Below are positions 5,923 through 28,284 of a stretch of 40,806 nt of DNA, piece by piece. This stretch comes from a virus. Under the pieces are notes generated by a model that was not told the origin of the DNA, searched no databases, and saw only the letters and a program-made list of their open reading frames with translations. Positions within the stretch are counted from its first letter, which is position 1; every line of letters starts with the position of its first letter. A program made the translations under genes and the position numbers. The stretch spans positions 1 to 40,806 of IMG/VR virus record IMGVR_UViG_3300042731_011622. One strand, given 5' to 3'.

Positions 5923-6210
5923 TCAGTCCTCCTCGTCATCAACGAAATAGGGCTTCAACTCCGCCATACTGCTCACTTCACGTTCGTCGGACTTCGCGTA
6001 CGGATCGAAGTCGGACGGCTCGAACGGCCTGGTCTTCGGGCCGCGGTGGCAGTTCGCCACGGTCATCATCAGCGCCGAGGCGCGAGCCCATTCGCCGCGC
6101 GACCGGGCCTCGGCCATGTCGGCGAGCTCGCGGAGCGTCAGCGGTCCGGGATCGACGCCAGCGACGCCGGCACACTGCCAGATCCAGCGTTCAAGCTCGT
6201 CTGGACTTGC
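5923..6210 (-). CDS. Second tail assembly chaperone frame (gpT-like), start not resolved
   Basis: This frame stays open upstream through the preceding chaperone gene. The protein-like part begins near SPDELERWIWQCAGVAG (about 6207) and runs through LTLRELADMAEARSRGEW to the Asp/Glu-rich C-terminus at 5923. The first in-frame ATG (6117) would cut off the WIWQCAGVAG block, which looks like the natural N-terminus of the domain. The frame is -1 relative to the upstream chaperone and overlaps it by roughly 70 bases. That matches the lambda G/GT layout, in which a ribosomal frameshift makes a fused chaperone. No classical slippery heptamer is obvious. The start given here is the domain edge, not a proven start codon. 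Confidence 0.6.
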   Translation of the reverse strand, partial: ASPDELERWIWQCAGVAGVDPGPLTLRELADMAEARSRGEWARASALMMTVANCHRGPKTRPFEPSDFDPYAKSDEREVSSMAELKPYFVDDEED

Positions 6211-7263: not shown

Positions 7264-7677
7264 TCAGCCTCCAATCCAGTCTCGGAGCGAGACGATCTTG
7301 ACGGAGATGTCGACCTTCACCACGTCACCCGCATCCTCCTTGCGGCTGCACTTGGTGACCGTGAAGTCGCCGTCCGGGCCCTCGCCGGTCTCGTCGAGGA
7401 TCTTCAGGGCGATCGGGGCGCCGGTGCGCCACGCGTTGCGGAACATCGCGTAGGCGGCCGCCGCCTCGGGATACTTGACGAGCGTGAAGTCGACGGCACA
7501 CGAGCGCGACACCTGCACCGTGGTCTCCATGCCGTCACCGCGACGTGTCACGAAGCTGACGGTGTTGGCGTCGCAATCCAGCGTGAGCCCCTCGATATCG
7601 AGCAGCTCGGCCGACGGCGACACGCCTTCGACGCCGTAGTACAGGTGGCCCTTGCGTCCGAGATAGAAAGTCGGCAT
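7264..7677 (-). CDS. Major tail (tube) protein candidate
   Basis: 137 residues, ATG at 7677 preceded by AGGAGG. It begins MPTFYLGRKGHLYYG. A segment near residues 29-45 (IEGLTLDCDANTVSFVTRRG) precedes DFTLVKYPEAAAAYAMFRNAW. This resembles the compact beta-sandwich tube proteins, whose strands carry short 'D.T' and 'F.V....' patterns. Its size and its position two genes upstream of the chaperones fit the major tail protein that polymerises into the tube. Identification is from layout and general fold features. The 199-residue neighbour is the alternative tube candidate. Confidence 0.55.
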   Translation of the reverse strand: MPTFYLGRKGHLYYGVEGVSPSAELLDIEGLTLDCDANTVSFVTRRGDGMETTVQVSRSCAVDFTLVKYPEAAAAYAMFRNAWRTGAPIALKILDETGEGPDGDFTVTKCSRKEDAGDVVKVDISVKIVSLRDWIGG

Positions 7678-15076: not shown

Positions 15077-15088
15077 CGCGTCCTCCAC

Positions 15089-15159
15089 TTGCGGGAGCGG
15101 GATTCGAACCCGCGGCTCCGGCGCATGAAGCCGGCATGTTGCCGTTACACCATCCCGCC
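15089..15159 (-). tRNA. tRNA with CAU anticodon (Met or Ile2)
   Basis: Cloverleaf on the minus strand. The acceptor pairs six bases after a G1-A72 mismatch. The D arm contains GTGTAACGGCAACAT, the anticodon stem CCGGC/GCCGG closes a loop TTCATGC (anticodon CAT), and the T stem GCGGG/CCCGC closes TTCGAAT. No encoded CCA. The anticodon fits elongator or initiator Met, or lysidine-modified Ile-AUA. The unpaired position 1-72 and G29-C41, G30-C40 pairs recall initiator tRNAs, but the third G-C pair is reversed. The tRNA lies in the structural operon just upstream of the small connector gene. Confidence 0.85.
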
Positions 15160-15198
15160 AAACCGGCCGGGCGTTCCACGAGGCGAGGCCAAACGAAA

Positions 15199-19889: not shown

Positions 19890-20101
19890 CACGATAGCCC
19901 TCCGCCGGCCATCTCCTTCACCAGCCACGCGGCGTAGCGGATCAGATTCAGCGTTCCGTCCGCGTTCGTCGGGGCCCCGGCGGCCACGTCGGCCTCCAGC
20001 ATCTCGACCGTGACCGCCTGACCGCCGGCCGCCGACAGCAGCCGGGCGGCGTCGGCCAGCGGCAGAGCCGCGGGGTTCAGCCTCGCTTCCGCTCCGTCCA
20101 T
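19889..20101 (-). CDS. Small terminase-like helix-turn-helix protein
   Basis: 70 residues, ATG at 20101, the first gene of the packaging and structural operon. The sequence has LPLADAARLLSAAGG (first helix) and DGTLNLIRYAAWLVKEM. The RYAAWLV element is repeated near residue 55 of the large terminase's N-terminal domain, so the two probably share a DNA-recognition fold. Size and position suggest the small terminase that recognises the packaging site. It is shorter than typical TerS proteins (about 140-180 residues), and the oligomerisation region may be missing or supplied elsewhere. Confidence 0.65.
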   Translation of the reverse strand: MDGAEARLNPAALPLADAARLLSAAGGQAVTVEMLEADVAAGAPTNADGTLNLIRYAAWLVKEMAGGGLS

Positions 20102-20776: not shown

Positions 20777-20857
20777 CGCCGCCGAAATCCCGACCCGGTC
20801 GGGATCGCCCGGGCGCGTGAGACCCGGGCCTGACGAGGCAACGTGAAAGGACCAGCC

Positions 20858-21331
20858 ATGACGAAGGACGAGGTCAAAATCGGGCACACGTACGAGGCCA
20901 AGGTGAGTAACCGCATCGTCACGGTGCGGATCGACTCGACCAACAGCCACGGCGGCTGGAACGCCACAAACACCGCCACCGGCAAGCGCATCCGCATCAA
21001 GAGCGCCCGGCGATTGTGGCGCCCGGTTGAGACCGCCGGCGGCGGCGAGACTCAGCCAGCCCAGAAACGCCGCCCGAAGCAGCCCGCCGAGCCGCGGCCT
21101 CGGCGTGTCGGCGCCCTGGACGCCGCGGCCCAGGTCCTGGCCGACGCCGGCCAGCCCATGCGGGCCAAGGAGCTGATCGAGGCGATGGCCGAGCGCGGCC
21201 TGTGGACGAGTCCCAACGGCAAGACGCCGGAATCCACACTCTACGCCGCGATCCTGCGGGAGATCGGCGCCAAGAGCGACAAGGCTCGCTTCAGGAAGAC
21301 CGGCCGCGGGCAGTTCGCGTTTTGCGGATAA
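20858..21331 (+). CDS. HARE-HTH domain protein
   Basis: 157 residues from ATG 20858, with GAAAGGA just upstream; an ATG five codons earlier has no ribosome site. Two parts are visible. Residues ~1-55 (VKIGHTYEAKVSNRIVTVRI, WNATNTATGKRI) form a small beta domain. A Pro/Arg-rich linker follows. Residues ~88-157 (GALDAAAQVLADAGQPMRAK, LWTSPNGKTPESTLYAAI, then RFRKTGRGQFAF) match the HARE-HTH winged helix found in ASXL proteins, RNA polymerase delta and restriction enzymes. The family binds DNA and often pairs with DNA-modification genes, and two methyltransferases lie in this phage. A regulatory or modification-linked role is inferred. Confidence 0.78.
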   Translation: MTKDEVKIGHTYEAKVSNRIVTVRIDSTNSHGGWNATNTATGKRIRIKSARRLWRPVETAGGGETQPAQKRRPKQPAEPRPRRVGALDAAAQVLADAGQPMRAKELIEAMAERGLWTSPNGKTPESTLYAAILREIGAKSDKARFRKTGRGQFAFCG

Positions 21332-21418: not shown

Positions 21419-22111
21419 ATGCTCCCGCGCTTCTACCTGCGAGACGTTCAGTGGTCGGCGGCTGATCCCGTCTACGGCTCCAAGGCGACGATTGTGCGTG
21501 GCCGCGTCGCTACCCAGGAGAATCCAGGCGAATGCGATGCGAATTGGTTCGTCGGCCCTGAGACGGCGATAGTCGGTTCGCACATCGACGCCCCAGAACC
21601 GACCATTGTGCACTATGAGGTGAGGGTGCGACCGGAAGACCTTGCCAAAATCGCGCGCAGTCGACTCGTAGTCGCCGCTCGACGCCCATTTGCTGGGTTG
21701 CACTCGAAGGTGCGGGATGCCCGTGTTCGAATTTCGGTGAATGACACGCGAATCGAGTACTTCGGCCTGAAAGATGACTCGCCGCCCCACAGCGATTACT
21801 TCCACCGGGAAAGAGCGCCACTCCCTCTCGAAAGTATCCCGTTGATAAGCGATTGCCACACTATCTATCACTGGTCAATCCCACCTCGCGCTCTTGAACG
21901 GCGTACCTCTCAATTGATTGAATTCGACCTTGATCCAGCAGTGCGATGGGACATTGATTATGTCACCATCATTACGGGGACGGAGTCGCGGAAGCTGACA
22001 CCTTTCGGAGACCGCTTCCTCTGGCAGTTCCTGCTGCTCGGTCTAGTTGTCGGGATTATCCTCATCGTCATCAGCATCCTCCTCGCGAAATGGATCGGGA
22101 CCGGAGGCTAG
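21419..22111 (+). CDS. C-terminally membrane-anchored protein, unknown function
   Basis: 230 residues from ATG 21419, chosen because AGGAGG lies seven bases upstream; earlier in-frame ATGs (including 21413) are worse placed. The first ~200 residues are soluble and beta-rich (LPRFYLRDVQWSAADPVYG, VHYEVRVRPEDL), with no signal peptide. One strong hydrophobic helix near the C-terminus (FLLLGLVVGIILIVISILLA, ~204-223) is followed by a short KWIGTGG end. That topology puts the bulk in the cytoplasm, as in tail-anchored proteins. The gene is AT-richer than its neighbours, has its own promoter and converges on the methyltransferase gene with a 69-base 3' overlap. A moron acting at the membrane, for example in superinfection exclusion, is a guess. 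Confidence 0.7.
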   Translation: MLPRFYLRDVQWSAADPVYGSKATIVRGRVATQENPGECDANWFVGPETAIVGSHIDAPEPTIVHYEVRVRPEDLAKIARSRLVVAARRPFAGLHSKVRDARVRISVNDTRIEYFGLKDDSPPHSDYFHRERAPLPLESIPLISDCHTIYHWSIPPRALERRTSQLIEFDLDPAVRWDIDYVTIITGTESRKLTPFGDRFLWQFLLLGLVVGIILIVISILLAKWIGTGG

Positions 22112-22771
22112 CTCCGCCTTTTGCCCCGTGAACTGCTCCCACCGCCGCACGATCACGTCGCAGTACAGCGGGTCGAGCTCCATCAGAAACGCCCGCCGGC
22201 CCGTCTGCTCGGCGGCGATCAGCGTCGAGCCGCTGCCGCCGAACAAGTCCAGCACGTTCTCGCCCGGGCGTGACGAGTACTGCATCGCCCGCACCGCCAG
22301 CTCGACCGGCTTCTCGGTCAGGTGGACCATGCTCTGCGGGTTGACCTTCTTGACCGACCAGACGTCGGTGGCGTTGTTCGGCCCGAGGAAGACGTGGGCG
22401 GCACCCTCGCGCCACGTGTAGAAGCACCACTCGTGGTTGCCCATGAAGTCCTTGCGGGTGAGGACCGGGTGCTCCTTCACCCAGATGATCGTCTGGGAGA
22501 AGTACAGCCCGGCGGCCTTCAGCACCGGTGGGTAGTTGGCGATGTTGGCGTAGCCACCCCAGATGTACGCCGCCCGCCCGGGCAATAGCACGCGGGCGAT
22601 GTTGCCGAACCAGGCGTGCAGCAGCCGCCCGAACTCCTCGTCCGACACGAAGTCGTTCTCGAGCGGGCGGTCCCTGGGGCGCAGCTTCCGGCGTCCGGCC
22701 TGCGCTTCCTCCGCCGGGAACGACGACAGCCCCGCCGCGATCGCGTTGTTGCTGCGCGGCTCAACACGCAC
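22043..22771 (-). CDS. ParB-like/DNA methyltransferase, exon 2
   Basis: Second exon of the intron-split methyltransferase; it encodes residues 196-437 and the stop. It starts VRVEPRSNNAIAAG, in frame with the first exon's final DPPYG once the intron is removed. It holds the substrate-facing part (GRAAYIWGGYANIANYPPV, LTRKDFMGNHEWCFY), the target-recognition region, and the AdoMet-binding motif LDLFGGSGSTLIAAEQTGRR followed by LMELDPLYC. Motif order DPPY then FxGxG marks a beta-class amino methyltransferase acting on adenine N6 or cytosine N4. The C-terminus is a highly acidic tail. The last 69 bases overlap the convergent membrane-anchored gene. Confidence 0.92.
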   Translation of the reverse strand: MRVEPRSNNAIAAGLSSFPAEEAQAGRRKLRPRDRPLENDFVSDEEFGRLLHAWFGNIARVLLPGRAAYIWGGYANIANYPPVLKAAGLYFSQTIIWVKEHPVLTRKDFMGNHEWCFYTWREGAAHVFLGPNNATDVWSVKKVNPQSMVHLTEKPVELAVRAMQYSSRPGENVLDLFGGSGSTLIAAEQTGRRAFLMELDPLYCDVIVRRWEQFTGQKAELASGPDPFREEDADDDEDNPDN

Positions 22772-22810
22772 GTGGTGTAGGCCGGGAGATTGCATCCCGA
22801 CCCCAACCCC

Positions 22811-22844
22811 GAACCGGACTTGCACGTTTCCGTGCATCCGGCTC
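22811..22844 (-). ncRNA. Group II intron domain V
   Basis: A 34-nt hairpin beginning GAGCCG and ending CGGTTC, with a GAAA tetraloop-type centre and an AAG near the 3' bulge. This is the most conserved, catalytic part of group II introns and binds the metal ions for splicing. It starts 22 bases after the maturase stop, as expected. Domain VI, which should carry the branch-point A (candidate in CTACACC), follows. Confidence 0.9.
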
Positions 22845-22865
22845 TCCAGATGATTCTCGGCTCTG

Positions 22866-24533
22866 CTACGCACTGTGCTTCTCCCGGTGACAATCCAGGC
22901 ACAAGGTCTGGAGGTTCTCATCGGTGGTCGCCAGGGCGAAGCTCGCAAAGCGATGTACGGGGACGATGTGGTCCGCCTGGGAGTTCCGGTCCGTAACCCG
23001 TTTCCCACAAGCGCGACAGCGATAGCCGTCACGCTGTAAGGCGCGGTATTTCGCGTCCAGGTTCCCCAGGCGCCGGCGTTCATTGAACTGCGCGAACGCC
23101 GCTTCCATCTCGGCGTCAGTCTCATAGTCGCCCTGGCCGGGCATGTACGGTTCTGGTCCGCGATAGTCCAGCTTCATCGAAAATCCGCTGAACGTCTCCA
23201 AGCGGCAGAGGTCGTCAACCTGGAGTCCGCCGCGACGGTAGTACCGCTTCATGGCCGTGCCCGTAGGGATGTCGAACTTGCGACAGATACCCTTTAGGGC
23301 GATCCAGAGCGCATGATGATCCAACGTTCCAGCAAGGTCCGTGAAGTTGTGGGCGATACGGAAGTATTCCGACCACCCGCGCACGACCGCCGAGCCACGC
23401 TGCAACCGCAGGGCCACCGATTCCTGGTGGGGGCGATTCCGCAGCGCGTCATGCAGCCGCTGTTTCACGTTCGCCAGGGCCTTCAGACCAACCTTGATCT
23501 TCGGCACCCGCTTACCGCCTTGGCCGATTTCATAGCTCAGGCGGAAGCCGAGGAAGTCATACCCATCCTGGACGTGCGTGACGTGTGTCTTCTCCACCGA
23601 GAGTTCCAGGCCGCATTCGCGTCGAAGGAACTCGCGGATGTCATCGCGCAGCGTTTCGGCATAGCGCCGCGACGCCCGCGTGACGAAGACGCACCAGTCG
23701 TCCGCATACCGCACGAACCGAACATTCGGCCGCCGGTTGCGGGCGGCCCGCATCATGGCCTGCTCGTGCGTGCCCTTACTGTGCAGGAACCAGTCCAGCT
23801 TGTTCAGGACCGCATTGGCCAGCAGCGGTGAGATCACGCCACCCTGGGGTACGCCTTTCTCGGTCGGCTGGACAATGCCCTCGACCTCCACACCAGCCTT
23901 GAGGAACCGGTGGATCAGCGCGAGGAACTTGTTGTCCATGACCTTCTCCCGCACGGCCCGCAGGATGGACCGGTGCGAGATCTCATCGAAGCATGCCTTG
24001 ACATCTCCCTCAATCACCCAGGTGAAGCCGTGCTTCATCAGGTGCTGACAACGGAAAACGGCATGGTGCGTGCTTCGGTGAGGCCGGAACCCGTACGAAT
24101 GATCGTGGAACTCCACCTCGAAGATCGGTTCCAGCGCCATGCGGATGGCTTCCTGGACGATCTTGTCCCGTAGACAGGGGATGCCCAGAGGCCGCAGTTT
24201 GCCGTTGGCCTTCGGGATCATCACCCGCCGCACGGGTTGGGGTTGGTACGTTCCACGCTTCAATTCCAGGCGCAGACATTCGAGCTTGCCGTCGAGCCCC
24301 TTGCGGAACTCGCGTGCAGTCACGCCGTCTACGCCCGGCGCTTTGTTGTGGGACCGCCTCAGCACGCGGTCGGCCGCATCCCGCAGCCAGTGCGGGTGGT
24401 GCATCAGGTCCATCAGGTTCCGCACGCGCCCGTCATACGGGTTGGTGGGGAACAGCGGTGTCCCGGATGCACGCAATTGCCGATGCGAGCCGGATTGCTC
24501 CCACAGCCTTCTCTGGACTTCCGCCACGTTCAT
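22866..24533 (-). CDS. ltrA: Group II intron reverse transcriptase/maturase with HNH endonuclease
   Basis: 555 residues, ATG at 24533 with GAGGG six bases upstream. It splices the intron RNA and inserts it into DNA by target-primed reverse transcription. RT motifs are present: KAPGVDGVT (~64-72), [14 protein letters not shown] (~106-119), YGFRP (147-151), [14 protein letters not shown] (227-240) and catalytic RYADDW (275-280). The maturase (X) region follows ([17 protein letters not shown]). The C-terminus is an HNH nuclease: [14 protein letters not shown] (520-525) and CLDCHREKH, with four zinc-binding cysteines. All catalytic residues look intact, so the intron is probably active. Encoded within intron domain IV. 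Confidence 0.95.
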
Positions 24534-25219
24534 CGCGAGCCCTCGCGATTGACGAACGCCTTGGCCGTCCAGAACGAAACATCCTGCGTCCCTTCGCCAT
24601 GTAGACGGTTTTCCCGTCCTCGGACTACTACGGACGCTCCGCCACCCAGCCGCCTCATCGGCAGAGATTCAGCCGCCCGAAGGCGGCCTATCTGTGCGAC
24701 TGCCATACTCGGCTGGGCTTCCCTGGTTCCCTTGCTGGCACTCAAACGCTTCCGGGTAGACTCCGACCTTTCGATACCCAACAGCTCTCCGCTGCTCCCC
24801 CAAGCACCGGCGGATAGTTGACCACTCCGCCGACCTCGGAATCGCCGAAGCGATTCGCCAGGGCATGCGCCTACAACGATAGCGCTTGCCCGCTTGGGCC
24901 ATTCCCTAGCCCGGGCGGGGTACTCCCGGGCGGCTCCAGTATTCGCAGGAATGGGGGCCCACTTTCCCGAAGGTATTGGTCGGTTCCTTTCGTAGTCGTG
25001 CGGAAGCTCTACCTGGCAGGACTGCATCGGTTGTGAAGCCTCACCTGGGTCCCACGTTGTCGGGAGAGCTATGTCGCCAGCCAGCTCACACGTGCTGGCC
25101 AACTTACTCCCTAGGTACAATGGCCGGCCAAACGGCCACGGTTTGCTTCCAAACATTGCCAACAAGGTCTCTCGCATGCTCGTAATTCCTTACGCAGCAA
25201 CGCGATACATCAGGCGCAC
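24534..25219 (-). ncRNA. Group II intron domains I-III (non-coding)
   Basis: 686 bases between the intron 5' splice site and the maturase start. No gene is expected and none is credible. The stretch has many short GC hairpins, for instance around 25100-25110 and 24905-24935, as expected for domains I-III, which carry the exon-binding sites. Exact domain borders were not folded here. Confidence 0.75.
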
Positions 25220-25804
25220 GCCGTACGGCGGATCGGTGACCATCAACAGCGGCGACGCACCGTCCAGGAGCCTGGCGACGTCTCCGGCTCGCGTGGCGTC
25301 GCCGCACAGCAGCCGGTGCTCGCCGAGAATCCACAGGTCGCCGGGCCGCGTGACCGGTTCGTCCGGCGGCTCGGGGATCTCGTCGGGATCGGTCAGGCCC
25401 GGCTTCACGTCGCCGCCGAGCAGCTTCGCCAGCTCGTCGGCGTCGAACCCCAGCAGCGACCAGTCGATACCGGCCCCCTGGAGCTCGGCGAGCTCGATCG
25501 GCAGCAGGTCGAGGTTCCACGTGGCCAGCTCGGCAGTTTTGTTGTCCGCGATCCGGTACGCCCGGATCTGCTCCGGCGTCAGGTCGCGGGCGACGTGCAC
25601 GGGCACCGCCGTCAGCCCGAGCTTCAGCGCCGCCTTCCACCGTGTATGCCCACAAACGATCACGCCGGCCTCGTCGACGACGATCGGCTGGCGGAACCCG
25701 AACCGCCGAATCGACTCGGCAACGGCGTCCACCGCCGCATCGTTGATCCGCGGGTTGCTTTCGTAGGGTTTGATGGTTGCTATCTGCACGACGTCAACAT
25801 CCAT
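25220..25804 (-). CDS. ParB-like/DNA methyltransferase, exon 1
   Basis: First exon of the split gene: 195 codons from ATG 25804, preceded by AGAAGG. Residues ~1-95 form a ParB/sulfiredoxin-like domain: IKPYESNPRIND, GFRQPIVVDEAGVIVCGHTR (41-55 region), then RAYRIADNKTAELA. In phage ParB-methylase fusions this domain is proposed to bind DNA or nucleotides. The methylase part begins near residue 155 (GDLWILGEHRLLCGDAT) and reaches motif IV, DPPY, at 191-194. The exon ends on a codon boundary right after Gly195. Joined to exon 2 it gives a 437-residue enzyme, a usual length for the family. Confidence 0.92.
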
Positions 25805-27414: not shown

Positions 27415-28284
27415 TCAGAACAGGTCCGCCTGTAGATCCCTCACGTCGCACTTCCCGTTCACGATCAGCACTTCGGCCGTCTCGTTGTTCTGCTGGTTGC
27501 GCCCGGTTTGCCTCAGCCAGGTCCACTGCGGCTCGGTGTAGAGCTCGCGAATCAGTGGGTGATCGCCGAACCGGATGGCAATCCGGATCTCCCGGAAGCG
27601 GCTCAGCACGTCGGCCAGTTGCATGTGGTCGTAGGCCGGGAACCTGTGCTGGTAGTCCTCCCCGGCGTCCGGCCACGGGGCATCGACGTAGAGGCCGACG
27701 CCGGGCTTGTCGTGGACGTGCCCGAGGAACTCGAACGCGTCCAGGCACAGGAACGACCAGCGTTTCAAGGCGTCGTGCCAGGCCCGTAGCGACTCGACGG
27801 CGCTGCGGAACCGGACGGCCGAGTCGCCGCCGCTGGCCGTCCACCGCGCCGACAGCGTCTGGTTGAACTCGCTCCGTTTGCCCGCGTGGCCGCCGCGGCC
27901 CATCCAGCAGGCGAGGAAGTAGTCCCTCGCCCAAACGACGTCTGCGGCGTCGCCGTTCCCGCCTCGCTGCTCCCGCTCGCGGCAGCGGCGCTGCGCGCCG
28001 GCCAGCTCGTCCTGGTGGAACAGGGCCCCTTCGAGCCGGTGCACGAGCTGCTCGACCAGCTCGTCATCGCGAACCACGCGGGCGAGGTTGATGATGTGCC
28101 GATGCAGGTCGTTGGCGACGCCGGCGGCCGTCTGGATGTGCGGCAGCTCGGCACAGCCGCCGGCGAACGGCACGCCGCACCAGCGCAGCTTCCCCAGGGC
28201 GGCCCCGACCGTATGGGCGAGTCCGCGATTGCCGCCGAACCACTGGGCCAGGGCGGTGATTCGCATGGTCGATGTGTCGCTCAC
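27415..28284 (-). CDS. Dam-family (D12 class) adenine methyltransferase with DAPW motif
   Basis: 289 residues, ATG at 28284. The protein has the D12-class order: AdoMet motif I near the N-terminus, LRWCGVPFAGGCAELPHI (~33-50), a helical target-recognition insert, and motif IV near residue 200, here YVDAPWPDAGEDY. Members normally carry DPPY or DPPF in motif IV; this one reads DAPW, with Asp, Pro and an aromatic kept and Ala at the second position. Catalysis may survive, because the Asp and aromatic are present. The C-terminal RIAIRFGDHPLIRELY and SRNQQNNETAEVLIVNG-like block (GRNQQNNETAEVLIVNG) complete the fold. It probably methylates adenine in phage DNA against host restriction. Confidence 0.85.
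   Translation of the reverse strand: MSDTSTMRITALAQWFGGNRGLAHTVGAALGKLRWCGVPFAGGCAELPHIQTAAGVANDLHRHIINLARVVRDDELVEQLVHRLEGALFHQDELAGAQRRCREREQRGGNGDAADVVWARDYFLACWMGRGGHAGKRSEFNQTLSARWTASGGDSAVRFRSAVESLRAWHDALKRWSFLCLDAFEFLGHVHDKPGVGLYVDAPWPDAGEDYQHRFPAYDHMQLADVLSRFREIRIAIRFGDHPLIRELYTEPQWTWLRQTGRNQQNNETAEVLIVNGKCDVRDLQADLF

Follow-up and report, generated by a model that had tools for sequence, protein, structure and literature searches.

The question raised by this locus is whether the element that interrupts a phage methyltransferase gene within its catalytic motif is a functional mobile intron, and whether that motif serves as a homing site for its lineage. The window, which is the whole stretch of DNA analysed here (40806 bases of a virus, IMG/VR record IMGVR_UViG_3300042731_011622), carries a phage gene set with a gpA-type terminase, a lambda-type portal, a capsid and a major tail protein. 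A tRNA-Met (CAT) at 15088-15160 on the minus strand sits between the portal and terminase genes. The gene under study is a ParB-methyltransferase on the minus strand, which is split into two exons:

25220-25804, minus strand: 5' exon, comprising ParB_N and the N-terminal methyltransferase part, ending in DPPYG (PF02195, phrog_498, translation).
22043-22771, minus strand: 3' exon, comprising the remaining methyltransferase from VRVEPRSNN through FGGSGST to the stop (PF01555, phrog_498).

Both exons are covered in order by the profile of ParB-like phage DNA methyltransferases (phrog_498), the matches spanning profile positions 33-233 for exon 1 and 242-432 for exon 2, and the DPPY and FxGxG motifs are both found in the exon pair. 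Excision of 22772-25219 joins 25804-25220 to 22771-22043 and gives 437 codons and a stop on translation, with CCGTACGGC followed directly by GTGCGTGTT at the predicted ligated junction. Without splicing, the frame hits a stop after nine intron codons (VRLMYRVAA); as it ends there, before the SAM-binding FGGSGST, the methyltransferase would be inactive until splicing, and methylation of the phage DNA may depend on it. A second adenine methyltransferase of the window, of the D12 class (27415-28284, minus strand), displays DAPW where DPPY is expected. A type II hammerhead ribozyme (20780-20847, plus strand; Rfam RF02276, 40.6 bits) was also noticed immediately upstream of the HARE-HTH gene (20843-21331, plus strand), and a hammerhead ribozyme lies near the methyltransferase in the intronless relatives L052, L048 and L040 as well.

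With reference to the exact edges of the element, the 3' exon also starts with GTGCG, so the window sequence by itself leaves the junction ambiguous by 5 nt. This ambiguity was settled because the conserved ends of related introns fix the edges, the 3' end being ...ACACCAY and the 5' end mostly GTGCG or GTATG. Three empty alleles (L104, L053 and L040) align to window positions 25214/25217-25774 and 22712/22718-22776/22785 with neither gap nor excess in the subject, and the DNA alignment of an intron-bearing locus (L033) with an empty one (L115) opens precisely at the first exon-2 base, with 92% identity over 1744 bp. The intronless comparison set consisted of 80 viral homologues, 65-79% identical, of which 69 could be parsed; in all 69, DPPYN runs straight into a valine codon with nothing inserted. 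Their last six bases before the junction are TACAAC (54), TACAAT (12) or TATAAT (3), and the next base is G in every case. The first-pass annotation had placed the insertion exactly after DPPYG, with a 437-codon frame restored by removal, and this is borne out by empty alleles that meet at both edges and by homologues in which no extra residues stand between DPPY[N/G] and V.VEPRSNN. We also considered that the intron itself drove an Asn-to-Gly variant in the window, an idea that was dropped because the methyltransferase of L115 is intronless yet has DPPYG (TATGGG).

The interrupting element displays the full anatomy of a group II intron, whose parts are as follows:

22772-25219, minus strand: group II intron of 2448 nt, GTGCG...ACACCAC.
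24722-25214, minus strand: domain I, approximate limits (RNAalifold on 15 introns; basal pairs in columns 6-9 and 541-544).
24641-24721, minus strand: domain II, approximate limits (alignment A2, columns 545-653).
24586-24637, minus strand: domain III, approximate limits (alignment A2, columns 657-708).
22866-24533, minus strand: intron-encoded protein of 555 aa in domain IV, with reverse transcriptase (YADD), maturase and HNH endonuclease.
22811-22844, minus strand: domain V, 34 nt, GAGCC...GGUUC (Rfam RF00029).
22772-22810, minus strand: domain VI (Rfam alignment), kept in relatives, with a predicted branch-point A at 22778 (CCUA).

The Rfam Intron_gpII model (RF00029, domains V and VI) matches 22846-22772 on the minus strand over its full length (1-77), scoring 58.4 bits where the gathering threshold is 40, and the ends GTGCG and AC, corresponding to a GUGYG-like 5' end and an AY 3' end, are kept across the lineage. 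The maturase reading frame is intact, with matches to RVT_1 and HNH and a weak one to GIIM slightly below the cut-off, while NCBIfam group_II_RT_mat (TIGR04416) scored 349.9 bits against a cut-off of 300. The Rfam models of domains I-IV gave no match in the intron up to an E value of 5; the structure of the 5' half therefore rests on covariation within the lineage, taken from an alignment of the intron part before the reading frame in fifteen related introns. RNAalifold predicted 191 pairs there, of which 114 have at least one change on both sides. Folded as a single sequence, the 5' part was just mildly more stable than its shuffles (z -1.8), which is uninformative, and the fifteen-intron alignment was decisive. 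The earlier reading of a group II intron with a 34-nt domain V and an intact RT-HNH maturase thus holds: Rfam domains V/VI, the covariation of domains I-III and the maturase agree, domain V lies at 22844-22811 inside the Rfam match, the 555-aa frame is unbroken with its NCBIfam match above cut-off, and the covariation that shows domains I-III to be there is strong.

This anatomy bears on what kind of element is involved. An intein or an in-frame insertion element is known from a phage methylase (the ShiLan element, PMC11855218), and an element of that kind in place of an RNA intron could be imagined here; the frame through the window element, however, stops after nine codons, and Rfam domains V/VI, covariation of EBS1 with the target and a maturase are all present, so that this reading was ruled out and we give it practically no weight. 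Another explanation is that the intron is dead or impaired in splicing, which would leave the window genome with a knocked-out methyltransferase. Phage methyltransferases can be dispensable, splicing is deduced from sequence, and two of the pairs between EBS1 and IBS1 are G.U. Against this, every domain is intact, as is the maturase frame, both exons are open with their catalytic motifs in place, EBS1 and the delta base still pair with the exon, and the closest relative of the intron, 85% identical, also has an intact frame, making a dead intron very improbable. The window intron is thus most likely competent for splicing, and it is presumably mobile.

For detailed enquiry into target recognition, use was made of the fact that introns of the lineage occupy different sites, by which recognition becomes testable by covariation. 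The elements concerned in the window are:

25220-25225, minus strand: IBS1, TACGGC, the codons Y-G of DPPYG (covariation with EBS1 across insertion sites).
24872-24877, minus strand: EBS1, GUUGUA, located in the loop of a hairpin at intron nt 343-348 (covariation and RNAalifold).
24878, minus strand: delta-like nucleotide C, intron nt 342, pairing with the first 3'-exon base G (Watson-Crick in 14 of 16 introns).

Across 15 introns, the EBS1 in this domain I hairpin loop forms on average 5.67 of 6 pairs with the final six bases of the exon, against 4.2 for the second-best position and a maximum of 4.53 in 300 permutations. When only one intron was kept per distinct target (11 distinct IBS1), the value was 5.55 against 4.45 permuted. 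The two sides change together, as in GUUGUA with TACAAC, GUUCCA with TGGGAT, GUCCCA with TGGGAC, UUCUUC with GAGGAA and GAUGUC with GATATT. In 14 of 16 introns the nucleotide just 5' of EBS1 is complementary to the base that opens the 3' exon, a count reached in none of 2000 permutations; these permutations, like those of EBS1, ignore relatedness, so the figures describe the pattern strongly but are not exact probabilities. In the window, all six positions of GUUGUA and TACGGC pair, which provides the EBS1 pairing sought for the exon ending at 25220, though the two G.U pairs make a looser fit than in relatives; L003 pairs at just four of six positions with its own site. Pairing of EBS2 with IBS2 is weakly supported: the best flexible register gave 4.7 of 6 over 14 introns, and the scan was without a clear column. 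Introns of subgroup IIA have their delta base immediately 5' of EBS1, and the window intron is tentatively assigned to that subgroup from this position.

Concerning the distribution of the lineage, maturase searches yielded 6 viral and 17 genomic loci, and a scan for the 3' end brought more. The window phage itself has relatives that live in Planctomycetota. Twenty-odd related introns were recognized, nearly all from Planctomycetota or their phages and largely within phage genes, and ten loci, the window included, carry the intron at the DPPY[N/G] junction of the methyltransferase. The insertion sites are:

DPPY[N/G], both flanks read: window, L002, L009, L029 and L007/L008 (one locus, with a ParB-methyltransferase 5' exon).
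DPPY[N/G], six exon-1 bases and all of exon 2 read: L005.
DPPY[N/G], exon 2 alone read: L017, L025, L028, L033.
Major tail protein, WD/TEDSGF: L014-L016, all three in the complete chromosome CP087563.1.
Major tail protein, DV/TTRA: L004/L019, L011, L012.
Major tail protein, EPLEE, likely a third site: L010 (5' side only).
Tail-region gene: L006.
Small gene upstream of the terminase: L013.
Second methyltransferase site, VWD/KQHPV: L020.
C5-methyltransferase-like gene: L030 (3' side only).

L003, L018, L021 and the partial L022-L024 had no placement in a known gene, and L031, obtained from a DNA-pattern scan, was rejected as a chance match. Wherever both sides of a protein-coding junction were read in a recognised gene, the intron lies in phase 0. 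The window itself harbors intronless homologues of the other targets, namely tail (7264-7677), tail-region (5980-6183) and pre-terminase (19901-20101) genes, and many intron loci have terminase, portal, capsid or tape-measure genes in common with it. Because host genes and many core genes are common to the loci and the window, the lineage appears tied to one phage family, within a small sample found by sequence similarity. CP087563.1 contains three window-related prophages (L014-L016, L205-L207) with the intron at the identical major tail protein codon in each; one of the three introns has an altered EBS1 that tracks a one-base change of the target. The viral contigs L025, L028, L030 and L033 start inside the intron, about 50-80 bases ahead of the conserved 3' motif, which suggests that assemblies break at repeated introns and that further copies stay hidden in this way. 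When 392 genomes from the phylum of L008 were searched at a strict threshold, only G146 was added, apparently the L011 contig again, whose length it shares.

The common DPPY position might be explained by one ancient insertion inherited with the methyltransferase gene. In its favour, the maturase tree contains seven DPPY introns, six of which form, together with L003, one supported clade (97/96), in which L003 is a single escapee. However, the exon-2 tree of 49 proteins has nine carriers, whose distribution requires 8 changes, random-like and no fewer than with shuffled labels (mean 8.4); alleles as near-identical as L033 and L115 (92% of DNA) occur with and without the intron; L017 reaches the DPPY junction from outside the clade with an identical EBS1; and the lineage has also inserted in other genes. 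A single old insertion is hence improbable. The sites are also reciprocally empty, since L020 has an uninterrupted DPPYN-VRVEPRSNN and an intron at VWD/KQHPV, while L002 shows the reverse. Because its presence is scattered over the methyltransferase tree, the intron most likely homes repeatedly, and repeated homing into the methyltransferase junction explains the data better than one old insertion. The proposal that DPPY, shared by very many methyltransferases, is a homing site of the lineage was upheld for ParB-methyltransferases, with ten loci and scattered presence, whereas for other methyltransferase families it is hinted at by one chimeric locus.

That locus (L008 2721-9665, the same as L007) consists of a ParB-methyltransferase 5' exon, the intron at DPPYN, then the C-terminal portion of a type III Mod, with Res downstream. 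Its delta base fits the old ParB-methyltransferase exon and misfits the Mod 3' exon. If introns lodged in the DPPY codons of two different methyltransferase families recombined, hybrid modification enzymes could arise in this manner, though we regard it as rather unlikely that the lineage, besides homing into phage core genes, shuffles exons as L007/L008 would indicate. An assembly joined wrongly at a repeated intron would yield an identical picture, and even then the DPPYN of the Mod gene would still need an intron copy of its own. The Mod part is single-copy in the L008 genome, which is neutral on misassembly, and neither the inspected related viral loci nor the phage records contained an intronless ParB-Mod fusion.

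Taken together, it is very probable that the window holds a mobile, most likely splicing-competent intron inserted at the DPPYG codons, which belongs to a lineage, mainly of Planctomycetota phages and prophages, that retargets through EBS1. Retrohoming is the mechanism common to introns of the 6me0 and Ll.LtrB type, to which the window intron is likened. In the transcript, the intron RNA and its own maturase would excise the intron, so that the exons join and the methyltransferase is restored. The lariat-protein complex would then find an empty allele through two pairings, that of EBS1 GUUGUA with TACAAC or a variant of it, where Tyr-Asn/Gly is encoded, and that of the adjacent C with the G that begins the following Val codon. 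Reverse splicing into the target, HNH cleavage and copying by the reverse transcriptase would follow, as in the family. Because the target is a catalytic motif, it would be offered by nearly every phage of the window's type, and changes of EBS1 would have switched the lineage to the several core phage genes in which it is now found. A retroelement can in this way persist in phages by targeting codons that selection keeps constant.

Group II introns were believed absent from phages until 2025, when Merk, Jones and Eddy described them there, with hits in 9,229 IMG/VR contigs (PMC12350094), which may include the window contig. Like the window intron, those introns lie inside phage genes, with or without an RT-maturase, and were found with the same Rfam domain V/VI model. 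The main text of PMC12350094, in contrast to the lineage described here, mentions no methyltransferase, tail gene or Planctomycetota, and neither recurrent insertion at one catalytic codon nor retargeting by EBS1 covariation within a lineage. The Thermosynechococcus maturase (PDB 6me0) and LtrA of the Lactococcus intron Ll.LtrB (PDB 5g2x) share the layout of reverse transcriptase and maturase with a C-terminal endonuclease; they are among the best solved-structure sequence matches of the window maturase, yet distant (bit scores 195 and 182), and have other hosts and other targets. The homing element ShiLan (PMC11855218), whose HNH is hidden and which sits in the DNA methylase of an actinobacteriophage, is likewise mobile, with an HNH endonuclease and a phage DNA methylase as target, but it is not a recognised intron or intein, is read in frame and is without a reverse transcriptase. 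No report of the lineage, or of any group II intron placed within the catalytic motif of a methyltransferase, was found in the literature searched, with most subscription journals outside it. The window intron joins a known kind, the phage group II introns, and the added value is the surrounding lineage: a compact natural experiment with about eight phage-gene sites, a recognition sequence matched to each and empty alleles for comparison, in which natural retargeting is directly readable from the sequences.
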